DNA from: a virus
Direction: 5' to 3' (one strand)
IMG/VR virus record: IMGVR_UViG_3300036804_000200
Span: 1-39,647 of that record
DNA length: 39,647 nt
Shown here: piece after piece, positions 24,434-39,647 of the stretch
Layout: each line of letters starts with the position of its first letter
Numbering within the stretch: position 1 is the stretch's first letter
Made by a program: the position numbers and the translations under genes
The notes under the pieces: model-generated
What the model was told of the DNA's origin: nothing
Seen by the model: the letters and a program-made list of their open reading frames with translations, nothing else
Databases searched by the model: none

Positions 24434-25012
24434 TCAAGCGGACTTCCGCAGCGCATCCCCAAGTTTGGCCACGCTGGCCGCGATGCGCTGGTGGACCCGC
24501 TGTTTGCTAACTGACAACCGATCTCCGATCTCGCCCAACGTCAGTCTGGGCCCACCGTTGAGCCCATAGTGAAGATCGAGCAGATCGAGTTCTTCCCGGC
24601 CCAGCTCTTCAAGCGCGGTCCAGATGGCCTCGGCGTCGCGCTCTTCCATCGGTTGCATTGACGCCGGGTCGACGAACTCTCTCATGTCGAAGTTGGTGAG
24701 TTCGCGACGTCGATTCGCGGCGCAATAGCTGCACAGCCTGCCGATGATGCAAGTGCCCGCGAACGTGGAAAACCGAACGTTCGGATGACGCACGGGATCG
24801 AACCTTTGCGCGCAACCGCAAAGCGCTGCCAGCGCCTCTTGTTCGAGGTCTTCTACTTCGATCCCACTGTAGTTCTGCCAACCGCGGCGGCGGGCCAGCG
24901 AATACGCAAGGCCGATGCACGAATCGACCAGTTCGTGGCGAGCCGCCAAGTCCCCTTGCAGGGCGCGTGTGCCGAGTGCGAGTTCGTCCGCGTTGGAAAG
25001 AGTTCGGCGCAC
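24434..25012 (-). CDS. RNA polymerase sigma-70-like factor, regions 2 and 4 (192 aa)
   Basis: Sigma region 2 spans about residues 24-105, including DLEQEALAALCGCAQRFDP and RFSTFAGTCIIGRL. Region 4 spans about 130-188, with LGEIGDRLSVSKQRVHQRIA as the helix-turn-helix that reads the -35 element. Region 3 is absent or minimal. It heads the long leftward run of virion genes, so it may redirect host polymerase to late promoters. GTG 25012 gives the longest frame; a GGAC at about 8 bp upstream is only a weak ribosome site. A second sigma-like protein is encoded at 31714-32298. Confidence 0.85.
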   Translation of the reverse strand: MRRTLSNADELALGTRALQGDLAARHELVDSCIGLAYSLARRRGWQNYSGIEVEDLEQEALAALCGCAQRFDPVRHPNVRFSTFAGTCIIGRLCSYCAANRRRELTNFDMREFVDPASMQPMEERDAEAIWTALEELGREELDLLDLHYGLNGGPRLTLGEIGDRLSVSKQRVHQRIAASVAKLGDALRKSA

Positions 25013-25236: not shown

Positions 25237-25369
25237 GCCGGCCGAGCAGACTTTCCCGAAAATAACCCATTAGGGGAAAGACAGGATCCCCAGGGGCTCA
25301 GAAACCTGTTTAAAATGCATCGCGTGCCGGTTGTGACATGCATCGTTTTCGGGAATGTTCTCGGCCGGC
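25237..25369. repeat. Imperfect inverted repeat upstream of the small recombinase
   Basis: Left arm 25237-25262 and right arm 25346-25369 share two blocks in inverted order: GGCCGGCC/CGGCCGGC and TTCCCGAAAA/TTTTCGGGAA, with spacers differing by 2 bp. The 83 bp between the arms hold a TAAAAT hexamer and two ATGCATCG motifs 22 bp apart. The element lies within 35 bp of the recombinase start. Candidate recombination or recombinase-binding site. The rest of 25013-25401 holds no gene I can support. Confidence 0.55.
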
Positions 25370-25401
25370 GAAAGCGACGGCTCCTTTTTCGGGAGAGTTT
25401 G

Positions 25402-25995
25402 ATGGCCCCAAAGACACTGCCCCCCCGTCGGCTGAACAATCTCCACGAGCGCGAGCACGAGTACATCACCTACGAGGAGTTCAAGATGATCCGGCGGGCG
25501 GCCGGTTCGATCGGCCGGCACCCGCACCGGGATTCGATGATGATCCTGATGGCATTCCGGCACGGCCTCCGCGCCGCCGAGCTGGTCCGCCTGAAGTGGG
25601 CCCAGCTCGATCTGGAGCGCCGCATCATCGACGTCCACCGGGTCAAGAAGGGCAAGCGGAGCACACACGATCTCTCCGTCGAGGAGGCGAAGGGCCTGCG
25701 CAAGCTGGCCCCCGAGCTGGACCGGGCCGGCTTCGTTTTCAAGACGGAGCGCATGGGCCCATTCACCACGAACGGTTTCTTCAAAATCGTCCAGCGCGCT
25801 GGTCAGGAGGCTGGGTACGCAAAGCCGCTTCACCCGCACATGTTTCGCCACGGCTGCGGGTACCACATGACCAACAAGGGCGTGGACATCCGGGTCATCC
25901 AGGACTGGCTGGGCCATCGGAACATCCAGCACACGGTGCGCTACACCGAGCTCTCACCGAATCGGCTCCGCGGTGCGTTCCCGGATGAAGAGTGA
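25402..25995 (+). CDS. Small tyrosine recombinase, FimB/FimE-size (197 aa)
   Basis: Complete tyrosine recombinase catalytic core without an N-terminal SAM-like arm-binding domain. Active-site residues: Arg57 in FRHGLRAAEL, Lys83 or Lys85 in KKGKRS, His146 and Arg149 in HPHMFRHG, His172 in WLGHRNIQ, and Tyr181 in RYTEL. Short recombinases of this size include fimbrial invertases and some phage integrases. Start ATG 25402 (GGGAGAG 6 bp upstream) is preferred over the frame opening at 25315. Its stop faces the RHH gene at 26104 across an inverted-repeat terminator. A second, longer integrase is present. Confidence 0.85.
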   Translation: MAPKTLPPRRLNNLHEREHEYITYEEFKMIRRAAGSIGRHPHRDSMMILMAFRHGLRAAELVRLKWAQLDLERRIIDVHRVKKGKRSTHDLSVEEAKGLRKLAPELDRAGFVFKTERMGPFTTNGFFKIVQRAGQEAGYAKPLHPHMFRHGCGYHMTNKGVDIRVIQDWLGHRNIQHTVRYTELSPNRLRGAFPDEE

Positions 25996-26103: not shown

Positions 26104-26367
26104 CTACGCCGCTTCGCTGTCTTCACCGGTGGTTTGTTCAAATGCTGCTTTGATGGCCCGATCCGTTTTGTACTTCGATAGGGACTGATCGAGCAGCACT
26201 TCCGCAAAGCGACATTTGCTGGTCCGTTGGGCCTTCGCCTGTGCGGTTAAACGCACATCCAGGCTTAGCGGAACGCTCAGGTGCAGATTCGCCAGAGGAC
26301 CCCGGATGCGGGTCGGTTTGGCCGTTGGTTCCAGTGTTTCTTCGATCGCCGGTTTTGCTCTGGCCAT
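26104..26367 (-). CDS. Ribbon-helix-helix-like DNA-binding protein (87 aa)
   Basis: N-terminal basic region, then LHLSVPLSLDVRLTAQAKAQ, a strand-helix-helix pattern typical of CopG/Arc-type proteins, followed by a second helix (CRFAEVLLDQSLSKYK). Start ATG 26367 has GGGGAC about 7 bp upstream. Together with the other RHH protein at 28424-28624 it may form part of the lysogeny control or an antitoxin-like regulator; no toxin partner is visible next to it. Confidence 0.6.
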   Translation of the reverse strand: MARAKPAIEETLEPTAKPTRIRGPLANLHLSVPLSLDVRLTAQAKAQRTSKCRFAEVLLDQSLSKYKTDRAIKAAFEQTTGEDSEAA

Positions 26368-26433
26368 GGTTGTCCCCTTTGTCGATTTCAACCCTGTCGG
26401 ATAATCTCTTATCGGCTCGGGGGACAAGCGTCG

Positions 26434-27994: not shown

Positions 27995-28405
27995 TCACTT
28001 CCCCTTCTTCGGCGGCGCCTCTGTGACAATCACGCCCAGCGTCCTTCGATCGGCCTTATATCGCTTCCCGTCCAGGATGAGGGCCCGTGACTTCAGCGGC
28101 CACAGGGCCCAGTACAACGCCTTTCGAGCAGCCTTGTATTCTTCAGGATGTGTTTCCTGCATCGCCCTGGCGGCTTCCCACTGATGCACGACTTCGGTCG
28201 CACGCGCTCTCGCAAGCTTCTCCCATTCATCGGACGTCATTCCGCCCGTCTGAATCCCCAACCGCTCATCGCCATCGAGCCGGCCATGTGGCATGACTAG
28301 ATCCCGGCCACAGTTTCTGCAAGGCGCGCTCAGTCGGACTTCATCGGCCCTGAAGTGAAACTCCACTCCGCAGTAGGGGCACGGGAAGTGACGCTCCTGG
28401 GCCAT
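27995..28405 (-). CDS. Zinc-ribbon protein (136 aa)
   Basis: N-terminal zinc ribbon CPYCGVEFHF...CRNCGRDLV (two CxxC pairs at about 9-12 and 29-32), then a helical, charged body (EEYKAARKALYWALWPLKSR) and a basic, Lys-rich end. ATG 28405. The ribbon suggests binding to DNA, RNA or another protein. It is translationally linked to the downstream lipoprotein gene. No specific family. Confidence 0.6.
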   Translation of the reverse strand: MAQERHFPCPYCGVEFHFRADEVRLSAPCRNCGRDLVMPHGRLDGDERLGIQTGGMTSDEWEKLARARATEVVHQWEAARAMQETHPEEYKAARKALYWALWPLKSRALILDGKRYKADRRTLGVIVTEAPPKKGK

Positions 28406-28423: not shown

Positions 28424-28624
28424 TTACCCCGGCATGCGCTTGGGCATTGGTTTGGCAAAGCCGTCATCCTTGGCCTGATCGCGAAGGGCGAGATCGATCG
28501 CTGTCGTGGCCTGCACGCCCAGGAAGTCAGCGTATTCCTTCAGCCAATCCAGCCATGCCGGATCGCCCTTCAGCGCCATCAGTGACTTCTGTGGCTGTCG
28601 TTTAGTCGCCTTCACTCTCGGCAT
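28424..28624 (-). CDS. Small ribbon-helix-helix protein, candidate repressor (66 aa)
   Basis: Pattern KSLMALKGDPAWLDWLKEYA then a second helix (GVQATTAIDLALRDQAK) followed by GF and a basic Pro-rich tail matches an RHH family of about this size that is common in some GC-rich bacteria. Start ATG 28624 has GGGAGTGGGAC upstream. It is the first leftward gene beside a control region with GGTA half-sites 11 bp apart, the spacing used by Arc-type RHH repressors. It is therefore the best candidate for the lysogeny repressor; this is inference. Confidence 0.6.
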   Translation of the reverse strand: MPRVKATKRQPQKSLMALKGDPAWLDWLKEYADFLGVQATTAIDLALRDQAKDDGFAKPMPKRMPG

Positions 28625-28670
28625 GATGTCCCACTCCCCGAAGGCCCCGACGCGTCCTGCAACTATCAAG

Positions 28671-28676
28671 AGTATA
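28671..28676 (-). promoter_or_regulatory. Possible -10 of a leftward promoter for the RHH gene
   Basis: The minus strand reads TATACT at 28676-28671, a near-consensus -10, about 47 bp upstream of the RHH start. No good -35 is found at 16-18 bp. Two inverted GGTA half-sites (28675-28678 and 28686-28689) overlap this region, which would suit autoregulation. Confidence 0.35.
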
Positions 28677-28776
28677 CCTAAAACCTACCGCGATGGTAGC
28701 TATTCGCGGGCCCGCAGATCTGGCCGATAGAAAAAAGGTATCACTAAGGTATTGACTATAAGGTACCTCAGAGGTA
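28675..28776. promoter_or_regulatory. Operator array: GGTA half-sites in pairs 11 bp apart
   Basis: GGTA(T/C) occurs on the plus strand at 28737, 28748, 28762 and 28773, and its complement at 28675 and 28686, with a lone GGTA at 28695. Each pair is spaced exactly 11 bp start to start: 28675/28686, 28737/28748 and 28762/28773. The half-site consensus is roughly aaGGTAT. The last three plus-strand copies overlap the -35, spacer and -10 of the rightward promoter. This is a classic arrangement for cooperative RHH repressor dimers. Confidence 0.7.
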
Positions 28777-28780
28777 TATT
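28752..28780 (+). promoter_or_regulatory. Strong rightward early promoter
   Basis: TTGACT at 28752-28757, 17-bp spacer and TATATT at 28775-28780 give a near-consensus sigma-70 promoter on the plus strand. It faces the early genes, whose first start codon is 55 bp downstream. GGTA operators overlap it, so its use should be controlled by a repressor. Confidence 0.75.
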
Positions 28781-28834
28781 ACACGTGTTGGCCACGCGTG
28801 AGGGCCAAGGAATGAAACCAAAGGGAGCAATCAA

Positions 28835-28936
28835 ATGGCACGGATCATCAACAGACTGGCTGACCTCTCGATCGACATCTTCGTCTTCCTGACCGTCGTC
28901 AACACGATCATCGGCCTCCTGAACCGCGTCCTCTGA
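28835..28936 (+). CDS. Tiny hydrophobic protein (33 aa)
   Basis: First gene after the early promoter. Start ATG 28835 has GGGAG 7 bp upstream. The sequence (MARIINRLADLSIDIFVFLT, then VVNTIIGLLNRVL) forms one amphipathic or membrane-spanning helix. Very small early proteins of this kind can be antirepressor-like or host-takeover factors, but nothing specific can be claimed. Confidence 0.55.
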   Translation: MARIINRLADLSIDIFVFLTVVNTIIGLLNRVL

Positions 28937-29477: not shown

Positions 29478-29877
29478 GCGACCGGCAGCAACCCAGGCCG
29501 ACAAGCGCGCTGACGACCGTTACGCCGCGTGGTGGGACCATCACCACGCGGACGAGCTCGACTCCCAGGCCGCCTCAGCCTCGGCCGCCATCCTCTGGCA
29601 TCGCCCCTACGTCAATCAACGGCTGCGGGCCCGGCTGGCGGAGCTCGCCGGCCAGTCCCCCCGCCATCCCGCCGCGCTGTACTACGACGCCTTCAAGACC
29701 GTCGGCCCCGGCACCGAGCGGCTGTTCGTGGACGCGAAAGGTGACTGGGTTCGCGAAGCCGACTCGGCCGTCTGGATGACCGAGGCCCAGGCCCAGGACC
29801 TCCGCCACAACTTCCCCTCCCTCGACTACGCCAAGATCTTTGTCTTCCAACCGACCGGAGAATTGATCCCATGGTGA
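29467..29877 (+). CDS. Hypothetical early protein (136 aa)
   Basis: Not recognised. Basic N-terminus, a His-rich segment (YAAWWDHHHADEL), helical centre, and ALYYDAFKTVGPGTERLFVD followed by Trp-rich DSAVWMTEAQAQDL near the end. ATG 29467 overlaps the previous gene; its end overlaps the Erf start by 7 bp. Early position upstream of Erf suggests a recombination or replication-associated role, but no motif supports it. Confidence 0.55.
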   Translation: MTTKRPAATQADKRADDRYAAWWDHHHADELDSQAASASAAILWHRPYVNQRLRARLAELAGQSPRHPAALYYDAFKTVGPGTERLFVDAKGDWVREADSAVWMTEAQAQDLRHNFPSLDYAKIFVFQPTGELIPW

Positions 29878-30761
29878 GCCTTCAGTCAGACTCGATCGAC
29901 CAGATTGCGACGGCGCTCAGCATCGCCCAGGGCGACATGGCGCCCTTGCACAAGAACGCCAAGAACGATTACATCGGCAACCGATTCGCCGATCTGTCAG
30001 CAGTCCGTGAGGTGTGCGTGACGGCCTTGAGCAAGAACCTGATTGCCGTGACCCAGATGATCCGCCCGCACGAAGGCGAGGCGCCGGCATTCACGGCCGC
30101 CAAGCCCCGCAAGGACAAGGACGGCAACACGCGCTACTTCGACGTGCCCGTGCAGATCCTGGGCTACCTGCGCACCCAGCTCACACACAGCTCCGGCCAG
30201 TGGTTCGCCTCGGAGCTGCCGATCGTGTGCAATTGGGGTGATCCTCACGCCCTGGGCGGTACCGTGACCTATCTCCGTCGCTACGCCCTGGCCGCCATGT
30301 GTGGCGTGGCCCAGGACGATGACGACGCCGAGAGTGCCAAGGGCCGCAACGGCCACGCCAAGAAGCAAGCCCAGGCCCCGCGGACGGATCGCTTCGAGGA
30401 TGCGACGCCGGTCAGCGTTGGGCGAGGGTCTCCCGACCCCGCCCCTGCCCCGACCGCAGGTCTCCCCTCTCCGGCCCCGGTGCCGGCCGCGATCGCCGCC
30501 GAGCTCCCCCAGTCCAACGGCCGCCGCGGTGCACCGGAGCGACCGCAGACGGGGTTGCAGCTCTCGACGTACTGTGGCGAGCAGAAGACGGATCCCGACC
30601 TCAAGCACTGGATCGTCGAGCGGTTCAAGCACCGCAGCTATCCGGTCCGCATCACCGAGTGGACCCCGGCCCAGGTCGAGGCCGCCTGGCCGGACATCCG
30701 CGATCACTTGCGGAAGAAACAGCTCACCGCTCAGATGCGCAGCGAACCCGTGTCCGTGTAG
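29871..30761 (+). CDS. erf: Erf-family single-strand annealing protein (296 aa)
   Basis: Recombinase that anneals complementary single strands during phage replication and circularisation. Diagnostic core: DYIGNRFADLSAVREVC at the N-terminus, THSSGQWFASELPIV around 105-119, and GGTVTYLRRYALAAMCGVAQ at 129-148 followed by DDDDAE, the strongest Erf signature. The C-terminal half has an Ala/Pro-rich linker and then a helical domain (DLKHWIVERFKHRSYPVRIT). ATG 29871 overlaps the previous stop. No exonuclease partner is recognised nearby. Confidence 0.88.
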   Translation: MVSLQSDSIDQIATALSIAQGDMAPLHKNAKNDYIGNRFADLSAVREVCVTALSKNLIAVTQMIRPHEGEAPAFTAAKPRKDKDGNTRYFDVPVQILGYLRTQLTHSSGQWFASELPIVCNWGDPHALGGTVTYLRRYALAAMCGVAQDDDDAESAKGRNGHAKKQAQAPRTDRFEDATPVSVGRGSPDPAPAPTAGLPSPAPVPAAIAAELPQSNGRRGAPERPQTGLQLSTYCGEQKTDPDLKHWIVERFKHRSYPVRITEWTPAQVEAAWPDIRDHLRKKQLTAQMRSEPVSV

Positions 30762-31713: not shown

Positions 31714-32298
31714 GTGTCCAGTCTTGCCTCACCGGCTATGCGCCGGTCGGACGGTCGTGGCCCGTCCACGCGCTCGATGCGCCGATACGAGTGGCGCAAT
31801 GACCCCCTCGGCCGCGGTCTCTCCTCAGACGAAGAAGTCGCCCTCGCGGCCCGCATCCAGTCCGGGGATCCGGCGGACGCCCTGGCCGCGCGCAACGAGC
31901 TGGTCGAGGCGAACCTCGGCCTTGCCAGGTGGTACGTCGAGAAACAACTCGCGGGCGATACACGCGAGTTCGAGGACGTGCTCCAGGAAGCCTATTCCGG
32001 GCTGATCGAAGCGGCGACGCGATACCGTCCTGGGCCGCAACACCATCGCTTCAGCACATACGCCGTCTACTGGCTCAAACTGAAAGTCGTGAACGCCCGA
32101 CGGCGCAGGCGGCTCATCCGCTTGCCTGCCCACCACTTCGAACGGCGGATGGAGACGATTTACACAACTTACGTGCGCTCGCTGGAAATCGATCCCCAGG
32201 CGGACCATCTCGGCCCGCTCGATCGATTGATTGAAGCCGAGCAGCACGATTGGGACACCAAGGCGCTCCGGCGATTTGGCACCAAGGTTCAACACTAG
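31714..32298 (+). CDS. Sigma-70-like protein, regions 1.2-3.0 only (194 aa)
   Basis: Contains a clear sigma region 2: LAARNELVEANLGLARWYVE, EFEDVLQEAYSGLIEAATRY and HRFSTYAVYWLKLKVVNARR, then RLIRLPAHHFERR corresponding to region 3.0. The rest (150-194) does not resemble the region 4 helix-turn-helix that reads -35, so it may act with extended -10 promoters or as a modified factor. GTG 31714 has an AAAGGA-type site; ATG 31738 or 31777 are alternatives. Directly upstream of the helicase gene. Confidence 0.75.
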   Translation: MSSLASPAMRRSDGRGPSTRSMRRYEWRNDPLGRGLSSDEEVALAARIQSGDPADALAARNELVEANLGLARWYVEKQLAGDTREFEDVLQEAYSGLIEAATRYRPGPQHHRFSTYAVYWLKLKVVNARRRRRLIRLPAHHFERRMETIYTTYVRSLEIDPQADHLGPLDRLIEAEQHDWDTKALRRFGTKVQH

Positions 32299-32307
32299 GA
32301 CGGATCC

Positions 32308-34077
32308 ATGGAACACAACAGTAACGGCCATACCAACGGTCATTCGAACGGCCACATTCCGGACGTCGGCCCCCGCCCCTACCAAGGGGCGGGCATCGAC
32401 CGGTATCCTCCCTGCGACCTTGATGCGGAACGGGGCGTCCTGGGCAGCATTCTGATCGACGAGCTCGTGCTCATAGACGTGATGGAGATCCTGACCATCA
32501 CGGATTTTTGGCGAGAAGCCCACCAGGTCGCCTATCAGGCGATACTCGACCTTTTCGAGCGTGGCGAACCGATCGATGGCATTACGTTCTCGGCCGAACT
32601 CAGGCAGATGGGTCGATGGGAAGAACTCGGCGAGAACGATTTCCTCACCGAAATCGTCGAGAAAACGCCGTACAGCTTCAACGCGAAATCCTATGCGAGC
32701 ATCGTCAAGGAGCTGTCCAACCGGAGAGCCCTCGATGCCGCACAAGCGGAGAACATCCGAGAGCGTGATTCCAATCGGTTCACGGCCGCCGAGCTGACAA
32801 CCAGGCACCTGGACCGCCTGGCCGCCCTCGAACAGTCAATCGGGATCCAGGAAGAAGACGGCAACGTTCATCCGCTGCCCGAGAAGATGGATCCAGCCGC
32901 ATTCTATGGCGTGGCCGGCAAGATCGTGCACGTCGTTGAATCCGAGACCGAGGCATGCGCCGAAGCACTGCTCTTGCAGTTCCTCACAATCCTCGGCGTC
33001 GCGATGGGGCCCAAGCCCCATTTTCAGATTCTCGGTACCAGGCACGGCACCAAATTGTTCGTTTGTCTCACCGGTGCAACCGGCGTCGGCCGCAAGGGCT
33101 CGGGATTCGACGCCATGGAATGGTTGATCAAGCAGTGTCACGCGACGTGGATGAAGCCGGTCCGCGGACTGGTTAGCGGCGAAGGCATGATCGCGGCTGC
33201 TGATAAGCGTCGCGGACCCACGCTTTGTCTGGAGACCGAGTTTGGCGGGACGCTCAACGTGATGTCCAGGCAGAGCAACACGCTGGACGCGGTTGTTAAA
33301 CAGGCATGGGACGGTCGTTATCTCGAGGTCTCAACGAAAAAAGACAAGCTCGAATACGACGATGCCCACGTCGGTTTCTGCGCCCATGTGACCTACGAGG
33401 AGTTGCGCCAGAAGCTTCGCCCCGATTCCCTTTACAACGGCTTCGGCAACCGATTCTTGTATGGACACTCCTATCGCTCCAAATATCTTCCCAAAGGCGG
33501 CTCCGCCAGCGCCATCCGTCAGGCCCTGGATCCGCTTGTGAGGGAGGTTTCTGATTGCCTCCAATTCGCAACAGGCAACAAAGATCTGGACATCCCCTAC
33601 ATGCGCGACGAGGAAGCCGAAGCGCTATGGGATTCGCTGTATCGTGAGCTCAGTTCCCCCAGACCGGGACTCTACGGTGCCGCGACGAGTCGCCGCGCGC
33701 CGTTCGTGCTGCGGATTGCGATGATCTTCGCCGTCATGGACCGGGAGTTCTACATCTGCACCAAACACCTCAAGGCCGCCCTGGCTGTATGGGATTACTG
33801 CGATCGGACGGCCGCTTACATCTGGGGTTCGCCCCGGCTCGAAGGCGATCTGGGCAAGCTGATCAAGTTCGTGGCGGATGCGAAAGAGGCGGGAGTGACG
33901 CGAACTGACATCAATCGGAAGTGCTTCAAGGGCAAGCTCAGGCCGCACGAGCTCGACGCATTGTTGCAGCAGGCCCAGGCGCTTGGTCAGATAGTGTACA
34001 GAGTCGTCAAGACGCGAGGCGCCGACCGTCACGAGTGGGTGTACAGCGGAGGGGGGCCTTTTGCGAAAAAAGGGTAA
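32308..34077 (+). CDS. DnaB N-terminal domain fused to DUF3987-like helicase (589 aa)
   Basis: Replication protein of the phage. After an Asn/His-rich start, residues ~34-150 match the DnaB N-terminal domain (DLDAERGVLGSILID; HQVAYQAILDLFERGEPIDG). Residues ~196-500 resemble the DUF3987 ATPase: Walker A-like GATGVGRKGSG near 256-266 and acidic LCLETEFGG near 306-314. The C-terminal ~70 residues (GDLGKLIKFVADAKEAGVTR) look like a winged helix. ATG 32308 with GGACGGATCC upstream. Its TAA stop (34075-34077) lies inside the left arm of the large inverted-repeat array. Confidence 0.8.
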   Translation: MEHNSNGHTNGHSNGHIPDVGPRPYQGAGIDRYPPCDLDAERGVLGSILIDELVLIDVMEILTITDFWREAHQVAYQAILDLFERGEPIDGITFSAELRQMGRWEELGENDFLTEIVEKTPYSFNAKSYASIVKELSNRRALDAAQAENIRERDSNRFTAAELTTRHLDRLAALEQSIGIQEEDGNVHPLPEKMDPAAFYGVAGKIVHVVESETEACAEALLLQFLTILGVAMGPKPHFQILGTRHGTKLFVCLTGATGVGRKGSGFDAMEWLIKQCHATWMKPVRGLVSGEGMIAAADKRRGPTLCLETEFGGTLNVMSRQSNTLDAVVKQAWDGRYLEVSTKKDKLEYDDAHVGFCAHVTYEELRQKLRPDSLYNGFGNRFLYGHSYRSKYLPKGGSASAIRQALDPLVREVSDCLQFATGNKDLDIPYMRDEEAEALWDSLYRELSSPRPGLYGAATSRRAPFVLRIAMIFAVMDREFYICTKHLKAALAVWDYCDRTAAYIWGSPRLEGDLGKLIKFVADAKEAGVTRTDINRKCFKGKLRPHELDALLQQAQALGQIVYRVVKTRGADRHEWVYSGGGPFAKKG

Positions 34078-34301
34078 AAAGCGCGCGCACTTTGCAACGA
34101 CACATGTTGCAGAGACTTGTGGCAAAAAGAGCGCGCAGGACCCGGCGGATTAAGTGCGCATGAACAGGTATGGGGGTCGGACCGATGCGAAATGCACCTA
34201 GTGTTAATGCGTCCTTTTTACAGACGCCTCTGCGCGCTCTTTTTGCCGTAAGGCAGGATGGCTCATCAGCTTCGAAAGTGCGCGCGCTTTTTACCCTTTT
34301 T
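34067..34301. repeat. Nested inverted-repeat array (candidate replication origin or control site)
   Basis: Outer perfect arms 34067-34093 and 34275-34301 are 27 bp each and read A5-G3-T-A5-(GC)4-AC-TTT, then the complement. Inner perfect arms 34121-34138 and 34230-34247 are 18 bp each and begin GGCAAAAAGAGCGCGC. A weaker third pair, 34152-34165 with 34203-34216, matches 11 of 14. All three are centred on 34184. The repeated unit AAAAAG(C/A)GCGCGC recurs 48 bp apart in both arms. The array follows the helicase gene and contains its stop codon. It may be an origin, a replication-terminating or transcription-terminating structure, or a protein-binding array. Confidence 0.75.
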
Positions 34302-34386
34302 CCGCTAAACACCCCCCCAAACCCTTGTTCACTGGTGAATTCGAAATCAATGGACCGCGGTAGTGTACGAGGCCGGTTCGGCGCGC

Positions 34387-34523: not shown

Positions 34524-34565
34524 TGCGCCAGGCAGGATTCGAACCTGCAACCTTCGGATTCGAAG
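34524..34565 (-). other. 3' half of a tRNA-Arg gene: probable attP core
   Basis: On the minus strand the 42 bp contain, in order, an anticodon loop CTTCGAA (anticodon TCG, Arg), a T-arm GCAGGTTCGAATCCTGC and an acceptor end CTGGCGC plus A. The matching 5' acceptor GCGCCAG and a proper D-arm are missing upstream, so this is not a complete tRNA. Tailed phages often carry exactly this part of a tRNA as attP so that integration restores the host gene. It lies 119 bp upstream of the integrase start. No other gene is visible in 34302-34683. Confidence 0.7.
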
Positions 34566-34683
34566 TACGGCACGCGGCCTCTCTCAACCAGCCAACGTTT
34601 CGCCGACGTTTCGTCGACGCAACTCGGCGTTGCAAGTCCTAGACGCTTACTTCATCATCCTATCACGCCGGGTAGGATCACGG

Positions 34684-35631
34684 ATGTCCCAACCCTCCCA
34701 AACTGGCCCGCCCACGATGACCCCAGTGCCGTTCAGCGACTTCATGGACGAGGTCCTGCGCCTGTACCGTCCCCCCATGCGCCGGCCGGCGACGTACCAC
34801 AAGACGCGCCAGGTCCTGGGCGAGTTCAGGAAGCTCTGCGCGACCACCGCGGACCTCACGCCGCTGGCCGTGGCGGACTGGCTGGCCGACGGGCCGGTGA
34901 GAGCGGCCGCCACCTCGGAGAGCCTCCTGAGGCACCTGCAGGCCGCCTGTGCCTACGGCGTGACCAAGAGCTACCTGGTTTCACCCTTCGACTTCCGATC
35001 GATCAGCCAGTGGCTGCCGGCCGACGAGCTGGAGGAAGCCGAAGACTTCCGGGCCCATCGCTCTGCCGACGAGATCCGGCAGGTGCTCGCCCAGGCCGAT
35101 CTGGAGGCCCAGGGCGGCTCCTGGGAGGCCCTCAGGCTCCGAGCCGCCATTTACTCGTGGGCCTATACCGGGGCTGGCAAGCTGGAAGTCCTGGGCCTCA
35201 GGCACCGCGATGTCGACCTGGGCACGCGAGTGATCACGATCCGGACGCATCCACGCCGTCGGCTCAAGACCGGTCCCCGAGCTGCCCGGCTGCCGATCGC
35301 CTGGCCGCTGGCCGAGGTGCTCGCCGGCTGGCTGCCCCACGCCCCCGGGGAGTGGATCTTCCCTCACAAGCGATTCTCCGGGCCATGGTTCTGGGGTCGA
35401 CCTGGTCACAAGCCCCTCGACCAGGTCAAGGCCCTCGGCCGCCGGGCCGGGGTCGACAAGCTCACGATCCTGGCATTCCGGCACACCGTCGGTACCTTGT
35501 CGGAAGACTGGGGGATCGGCGAGCTGATGCTGCAACGGATCCTGAGGCACTCGACCCGCAAGACGCAACGGCATTACCGGCACGAAGACGTCGAGCTGCT
35601 GCACCGAGCTGCCGAGCGAATCCACTACTGA
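34684..35631 (+). CDS. int: Tyrosine integrase with atypical active site (315 aa)
   Basis: Phage integrase with an N-terminal core-binding domain (~15-115) and catalytic domain (~125-315). Present: Lys195 in RRRLKTG, Arg266 in AFRHTVGT, His289 in ILRHS and Tyr298 in HYRHE. Atypical: the first catalytic Arg of the usual TGLR-x-SE motif is Gly165 (TGAGKLEVLGL), and the His of H-x-x-R is Leu263. Start ATG 34684; the longer open frame upstream translates the tRNA-like region and is rejected. It is next to the probable attP and is followed by a strong terminator. Confidence 0.8.
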   Translation: MSQPSQTGPPTMTPVPFSDFMDEVLRLYRPPMRRPATYHKTRQVLGEFRKLCATTADLTPLAVADWLADGPVRAAATSESLLRHLQAACAYGVTKSYLVSPFDFRSISQWLPADELEEAEDFRAHRSADEIRQVLAQADLEAQGGSWEALRLRAAIYSWAYTGAGKLEVLGLRHRDVDLGTRVITIRTHPRRRLKTGPRAARLPIAWPLAEVLAGWLPHAPGEWIFPHKRFSGPWFWGRPGHKPLDQVKALGRRAGVDKLTILAFRHTVGTLSEDWGIGELMLQRILRHSTRKTQRHYRHEDVELLHRAAERIHY

Positions 35632-39144: not shown

Positions 39145-39537
39145 TCAGGTGCAGCTCTGATCGATCAGGACGAAGTTGCCGGCGCCGTCAGGCAGGCAAT
39201 AAGCAACCTTCGAGGCCACGGGCGACGCCGGCAGCCAGTTGTAGACCGTGAACGTCCCCAGGCTGGTCTGCGTGGTCCCAGAAACCTGGTAGACCGTCAG
39301 GCCGGATTGCGAGCCGGGCGTCAGGGCGCCGAAGCTCCCGGTAGCTCCCCCCATCGTCGTCGGGAAACAGATATAGACCCCCAGGGCCGAATTGCCGAGC
39401 TGGCCCGGCTGCGAGAACGCATTGCGCGCGGTCTGCTGGGCCGCCTTGACCTGGTCCTGGAGATCCTGGACCAGGCGGAGCAGATATTCGAGCCGTTGCT
39501 CGGACGCGTACAGGCGCGTTTCAACCCAGCCGTTCAA
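39145..39537 (-). CDS. Tail-tip protein with N-terminal coiled coil (130 aa)
   Basis: Spans the circle junction: TTG 39537 corresponds to position 17 in the first copy of the terminal repeat and overlaps the TGA of the 1018-aa fibre gene (TTGA). The N-terminal ~40 residues form a coiled coil (RLEYLLRLVQDLQDQVKAAQ), then a beta domain (GLTVYQVSGTTQTSLGTFTV). It might trimerise and cap the preceding fibre. No ATG start is suitably placed. Confidence 0.6.
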   Translation of the reverse strand: MNGWVETRLYASEQRLEYLLRLVQDLQDQVKAAQQTARNAFSQPGQLGNSALGVYICFPTTMGGATGSFGALTPGSQSGLTVYQVSGTTQTSLGTFTVYNWLPASPVASKVAYCLPDGAGNFVLIDQSCT

Positions 39538-39647
39538 TTCATTTCCTGCGTGCGGTTGGGATCAATCGTCCATGGCGTGAGGTCGGGGCTGGCGGACGTC
39601 GCCAGCTCTTGCGTGCGCTCGGGGTCGATCGACCACGGCGTGGTTCC
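39521..39647. repeat. Terminal direct repeat, copy 2
   Basis: Exact copy of 1-127. It contains the last codons of the 1018-aa fibre gene a second time (39534 onward on the minus strand), and those codons are not an independent gene. After removing this copy, the 130-aa tail-tip gene directly follows the fibre gene on the closed circle. Confidence 0.93.

Follow-up and report, generated by a model that had tools for sequence, protein, structure and literature searches.

The proposed early-control region and its genomic setting

The window analyzed here is the whole virus record of 39,647 nucleotides, and the region of interest, positions 28640 to 28800, lies between genes that point away from each other. 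To its left is the minus-strand gene for a 66-residue protein (28424..28624), the proposed repressor, which we call RHH1. To its right, on the plus strand, the early operon starts with a 33-residue ORF preceded by a GGGAG ribosome-binding sequence (28835..28936) and includes, by family matches, an ERF single-strand annealing protein (29871..30761) and a DnaB-N/DUF3987 replication protein (32308..34077). The rightward early promoter, TTGACT-N17-TATATT on the plus strand (28752..28780), is the sole sigma70-like match between 28000 and 29500. For the RHH1 gene, we recognize a probable leftward promoter, CTACCA-N17-TATACT on the minus strand (28671..28699), whose −35 is poor (three of six matches) and whose −10-like TATACT (28676-28671) forms the end of an inverted pair of repeats considered below. 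The transcription start predicted from it falls about 40 nt ahead of the ATG of the 66-residue gene at 28624; this ATG fits better than a TTG at 28669, since the 81-residue form starting there would begin upstream of the predicted leftward transcription start.

A hairpin, TTGGCC-N9-GGCCAA (28788..28808, plus strand), lies where the early transcript is predicted to start. Hairpins with differing stem sequences are found at this point in five of eight phages, namely, the window phage and the relatives L051, L041, L054, and L053, but they beat shuffled sequences only in L051 and L041, and the leader hairpin was therefore rejected as a generally significant conserved structure. A search against Rfam returned no match.

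The two ends of the record carry an identical 127-bp direct repeat (1-127 and 39521-39647), so that the genome, of about 39.5 kb, is probably circular and complete. The gene content supports a temperate phage: family matches identify two tyrosine integrases (25315-25995 and 34684-35631), and beside the second is a tRNA-Arg(TCG)-like segment (34524-34598, minus strand) in which the 5′ part and the anticodon stem look decayed, the att-like appearance that an attP would have if it carried a host tRNA's 3′ half. Also encoded are two sigma-70-like factors (24434-25012, minus strand, and 31714-32298, plus strand), the second of which matches region 2 with no match to region 4, and a second RHH protein, RHH2 (26104-26427, minus strand), whose model matches antitoxin and CopG RHH entries and which is syntenic in the phages L004 and L012. 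Between the DnaB/DUF3987 gene and the tRNA and integrase lie two nested long inverted repeats (34051-34317; 43 and 23 nt, 91% complementary, GCGCGC-rich), possibly a replication origin or terminator. The proteins have a planctomycete-like look, a tentative hint at the host.

A GGTA array on both promoters

The tetramer GGTA stands at 28737, 28748, 28762, and 28773 on the plus strand and at 28675-28678 and 28686-28689 on the minus strand. These make three pairs, each with an internal spacing of 11 bp, and 14 bp separates the two plus-strand pairs; all six half-sites of the original prediction, the inverted pair included, were verified in the sequence, confirming the array. The first pair, GGTA-N7-GGTA at 28737..28751 on the plus strand (18-mer AAGGTATCACTAAGGTAT, 28735-28752), lies upstream of the rightward −35 and abuts it; the second, of the same form and strand, at 28762..28776 (18-mer AAGGTACCTCAGAGGTAT, 28760-28777), extends from the spacer into the −10; and the third, the inverted GCGGTAGGTTTTAGGTAT at 28675..28689 on the minus strand, runs into the leftward −10. 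Together, they give the consensus GGTA-N6-AGGTAT. Three half-sites had been said to overlap the rightward promoter, and this holds for 28762, in its spacer, and 28773, in its −10, but 28748 only abuts the −35; the half-site at 28737 is upstream of the promoter.

All three copies of the element GGTANNNNNNNGGTA (GGTA-N7-GGTA) in the 39,647-base record fall inside 28675-28776; 100 dinucleotide shuffles gave a mean of 0.10 copies per record and never more than 1. Because the word and the spacing had been picked post hoc, we widened the shuffle test to any tetramer at any spacing of 5 to 20; three pairs were then equaled in 2 of 4000 shuffles of 28640-28800. Further, the inverted pair ends in the minus-strand TATACT, and GGTA-N7-GGTATAnT is thus present on both strands in the same register, these being its only two exact matches in the record, with none in 100 shuffles. 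This coincidence of operator pairs with both promoters was absent from the original prediction. As a control, we took 32 promoter-like sites from these phages, and in 8 of them GG precedes the −10. This is common enough that the fusion of GGTA to a −10 is, alone, little proof of an operator, and GG before the −10 was dropped as a stand-alone mark.

The 66-residue protein as a ribbon-helix-helix protein

The 66-residue protein has no family in Pfam, PHROGs, or NCBIfam. A profile of eight homologues searched against PDB recovered only SvtR and ORF56, both RHH proteins, at weak E values of 0.18 and 0.27, and the homologue in L041 matches RHH_1 below the cutoff (E 0.014). In the AlphaFold2 model, which is of moderate confidence (pLDDT 69), a short N-terminal segment leads into two helices (residues 22-35 and 39-53), the strand itself not being formed in the monomer model. 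Foldseek ranks Arc, CopG, and further RHH proteins highest for it, each match being weak on its own (E > 0.8); VIA-align gives Z values of 4.6 for Arc and 4.4 for CopG, with homeobox rows at 2.2 or less. We accordingly regard the fold of RHH1 as the beta-alpha-alpha one of the ribbon-helix-helix (MetJ/Arc/CopG) superfamily, an N-terminal strand followed by two helices, and the profile and model matches bear out the earlier suggestion that it is an RHH protein. When the locus was checked as a type II toxin-antitoxin pair, the neighboring gene (27995-28405) was found to encode a zinc-ribbon-like protein with no toxin match, though it might be a toxin of an unrecognized kind.

Homologues and their upstream words in related phages

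Single-protein pattern scans of viral and genome collections and tblastn in phages and plasmids found no close relatives of RHH1, and scans with terminase and DUF3987 likewise found none. Relatives were reached via the integrase, a match to which yielded L004, and an int1 alignment then led to 80 loci; a second scan of genome contigs with the integrase alignment gave no match. In L004, the control region has the same order as in the window (int1, RHH2, RHH1, divergent operon), with RHH1 34% identical. Homologues of RHH1 were identified in seven other phages (L054, L051, L053, L041, L038, L004, and L012/L019), and the remainder of 50 contigs held none beyond one already known. They adjoin an early promoter, usually a divergent one, with ERF on the divergent side in L053 and DnaB/DUF3987 in L041; the synteny is imperfect, because in L038 DnaB sits on the RHH1 side. 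By capsid and terminase, L047 is closer to the window phage; no RHH1 was detected in it, and an RHHb protein, of another subfamily, stands at the corresponding divergent position. Upstream of 13210 in L053, the divergent region contains a tandem duplication of about 58 bp that includes the promoter-like end TTGGTACACTAT.

In the pooled 220-nt regions upstream of RHH1 and its homologues, no tetramer is enriched as strongly as GGTA (26 vs 13.6); 8 of these copies come from the window and 5 from L038, each of the two at a p of 0.002. Its arrangement differs from phage to phage: the −10 of L054 is covered by GGTT-N7-GGTATGAT, in L051 each of the two −10 boxes carries a GGTA, and a pair of CAAnnGGTACCnnTTG palindromes marks the RHH1 gene of L038, with one of them ending in the −35 and the other covering the −10. 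The region upstream of RHH1 in L041 has no GGTA, and L004 and L012 have, in place of GGTA pairs, divergently arranged GTCC-N7-GYCM pairs that were spotted by eye. The original prediction had proposed looking for the same array next to homologous genes, and the outcome is divided, with GGTA kept but rearranged in L054, L051, and L038, absent from L041, and replaced by the GTCC type in L004 and L012. Conservation of the array is thus only half borne out, since the exact 11-bp arrangement varies or GGTA is missing among the relatives, and a universal 11-bp lag was rejected (rank only 3 to 8 when pooled). The proposed contact residue in the strand is K in the window, L054, L041, and L038, R in L051, and W in L004 and L012, and a change of this residue may track the half-site type, W going with GTCC; we offer this as a lead.

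GGTA pairs and other RHH-like genes

Across 1.30 Mb of fetched phage DNA, window included, GGTA-N7-GGTA occurs 28 times. Phage-wide enrichment of this element was rejected, with 25 occurrences versus about 20 for other spacings. Only three of the elements lie on promoters scoring 11.5 or more, namely, those of the window, L038:6619 (minus strand), and L047:1581 (plus strand), and the latter two are each directly upstream of a small RHH-like gene of another subfamily. The register of the L038 element is identical to that in the window (+10/+21 from the −35). The genes of these subfamilies, RHHb and RHHc, have 18 GGTA in their 180 nt upstream versus 8.8 expected, with none of 400 shuffles as high, in a set that was partly preseen, as L038, L041, and the 57-residue protein of L047 (RHHc) entered it partly because GGTA sites had been noticed. 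The promoter-borne pairs and these counts are more independent evidence, from largely, though not fully, separate data. Their fold is called from a sequence pattern and weak family matches to RelB/ParD, RHH_10, and ORF56, the L047 RHH-like gene having only a weak match to the ORF56 family (E 0.035).

The 57-residue gene of L047 (1581-1779, plus strand), with its own GGTA-N7-GGTA promoter, lies on the strand opposite that of the surrounding late genes and is possibly a lysogeny-expressed moron. At the second RHH loci (RHHb) of L038 (6300-6700) and L041 (11940-12010), divergent promoters resemble those of the window's switch, and many GGTA, GGTATACC, and GGTAACC elements surround TTGACT or TTGACA promoters.

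A model for early control and its alternatives

From the repeats and the way they line up with both −10 boxes, the fold call, and the promoter-adjacent RHH genes with GGTA-type words in relatives, we propose that 28640-28800 is probably a divergent early-control region in which cooperative binding of RHH1 represses the ERF/DnaB operon as well as the gene of RHH1 itself. RHH1 dimers would dock their paired beta-strands on GGTA half-sites, and two dimers on half-sites one helical turn (11 bp) apart would bind cooperatively to an 18-bp operator. Two such operators would cover the rightward early promoter, one beside the −35 and the other over the spacer and −10, and one inverted operator would cover the leftward RHH1 promoter. 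RHH1 would thereby shut off the early operon and limit its own synthesis; as a further step, this repression would hold the prophage quiet. Binding, cooperativity, and repression are what we infer from the arrangement of the sequence. Exact spacing between adjacent half-sites is known to be required by RelB (PMC2812701).

The alternative that survives best contests this last step, lysogeny, and not the binding of RHH1. RHH1 may be an autoregulator and a repressor that times early genes, much as Arc of P22, in the course of lytic growth, controls both itself and the antirepressor (PMC7549136), with lysogeny held by another, unrecognized protein. Many proteins of the window are without family and a second RHH protein is present, so this is quite possible, if on balance doubtful; set against it, RHH1 is the promoter-proximal divergent gene, the classic position of a repressor, and no other candidate repressor was recognized.

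It is unlikely that the GGTA by the −10 is a promoter element, and not an operator, read by the host or by one of the sigma factors that the phage encodes. The phage's own sigma factors and the frequency of GG ahead of the −10 in the control would suit such an element, but it would leave unexplained why another half-site stands 11 bp away, why the pair 28737/28748 lies outside the promoter, and why pairs borne on promoters are confined to RHH-like genes. Another possibility, which we regard as improbable, is that the array is the operator of RHH2, which is also RHH by its model and is kept in place in L004 and L012. RHH proteins usually autoregulate, binding their own promoter; the array sits at the RHH1 promoter and no GGTA pair lies near the RHH2 gene, which points to RHH1. 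Very improbably, the direct repeats could be sites for a recombination directionality factor of the Apl/Xis type, given that the Apl sites between pR and pL of phage 186 are also direct repeats about one turn apart in a switch region (PMC7498355), but no Xis-, Apl-, or MerR-type (excisionase) protein was found among the scanned proteins, each array here has two repeats, fewer than the minimum of three with which binding by Apl has been detected, and the inverted array and the link to RHH genes elsewhere would go unexplained.

Returning to repression by RHH1, it is plausible that this protein is the master repressor of lysogeny in the role of CI/Cro, though the sequence would suit an Arc-like regulator of early genes equally. 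The original prediction had an RHH protein replacing the CI/Cro pair, and what stands of it is that Pfam and PHROGs scans revealed no HTH of the CI/Cro type, with many of the scanned proteins lacking any family; the only HTH-type matches there lie within a sigma factor, the gene at the switch codes for an RHH protein, and no Cro-like partner was identified. Such a replacement would not be unprecedented, given F55 of SSV1; RHH regulators of lysogeny are also known in P22 (Arc/Mnt).

Relation to known switches and significance

Immunity in tailed phages is usually described via HTH repressors. The lambda CI/Cro region resembles the present one in its divergent promoters and in having a small repressor gene next to an early operon that encodes replication and recombination functions, but there HTH proteins act on palindromic operators, whereas here an RHH protein would act on direct half-site pairs. 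The nearest known parallel is F55 of SSV1, an RHH protein that maintains lysogeny from tandem repeats at early promoters and its own (PMC5569661, PMC9608457). Like RHH1, it is a very small RHH protein with tandem repeats in or beside these promoters, an arrangement found in the window, and it represses early genes; however, SSV1 is an archaeal virus with BRE/TATA promoters, its sites are ATAGATAGAGT and not GGTA, and they lie at several scattered promoters rather than in one divergent region. Arc and Mnt of P22 (immI) are RHH repressors of the antirepressor region (PMC7549136); they are likewise short and autoregulatory, and Arc is the top match of the RHH1 model, but they control the antirepressor gene ant as accessories to the c2 repressor and not the main early operon. 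CopG, ORF56, and SvtR of SIRV1 share the RHH fold and autorepression, with ORF56 and SvtR as profile matches and CopG as a top model match, but they serve plasmid copy number or the control of other viral genes, and the weak matches point to a relation of fold, not to family membership. For Apl of coliphage 186, the shared feature is direct repeats, spaced by about one turn, in a region governing lysis and lysogeny (PMC7498355), but Apl is an excisionase-type protein with seven sites between convergent pR and pL, and none such was found here among the scanned proteins.

Tentatively, and with some doubt, we suggest that a group of tailed phages with a FimB-like integrase in common may run its lysogeny switch on RHH proteins and not on CI/Cro. 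Several unrelated subfamilies (RHH1 in the window phage, L054, and L051; RHHb in L038, L041, and L047) would occupy equivalent divergent positions and read related GGTA half-sites in differing arrangements, retargeted to GTCC where the binding strand changes, as in L004 and L012. In practice, an annotator who finds no CI in such phages should seek a small RHH gene next to a divergent promoter decorated with GGTA. If the proposal is true, these phages would offer a compact system in which to study the coevolution of RHH proteins and their half-sites, and a protein of 66 residues would show that a different fold can serve to rebuild the lysogeny switch, as it does in the archaeal SSV1.
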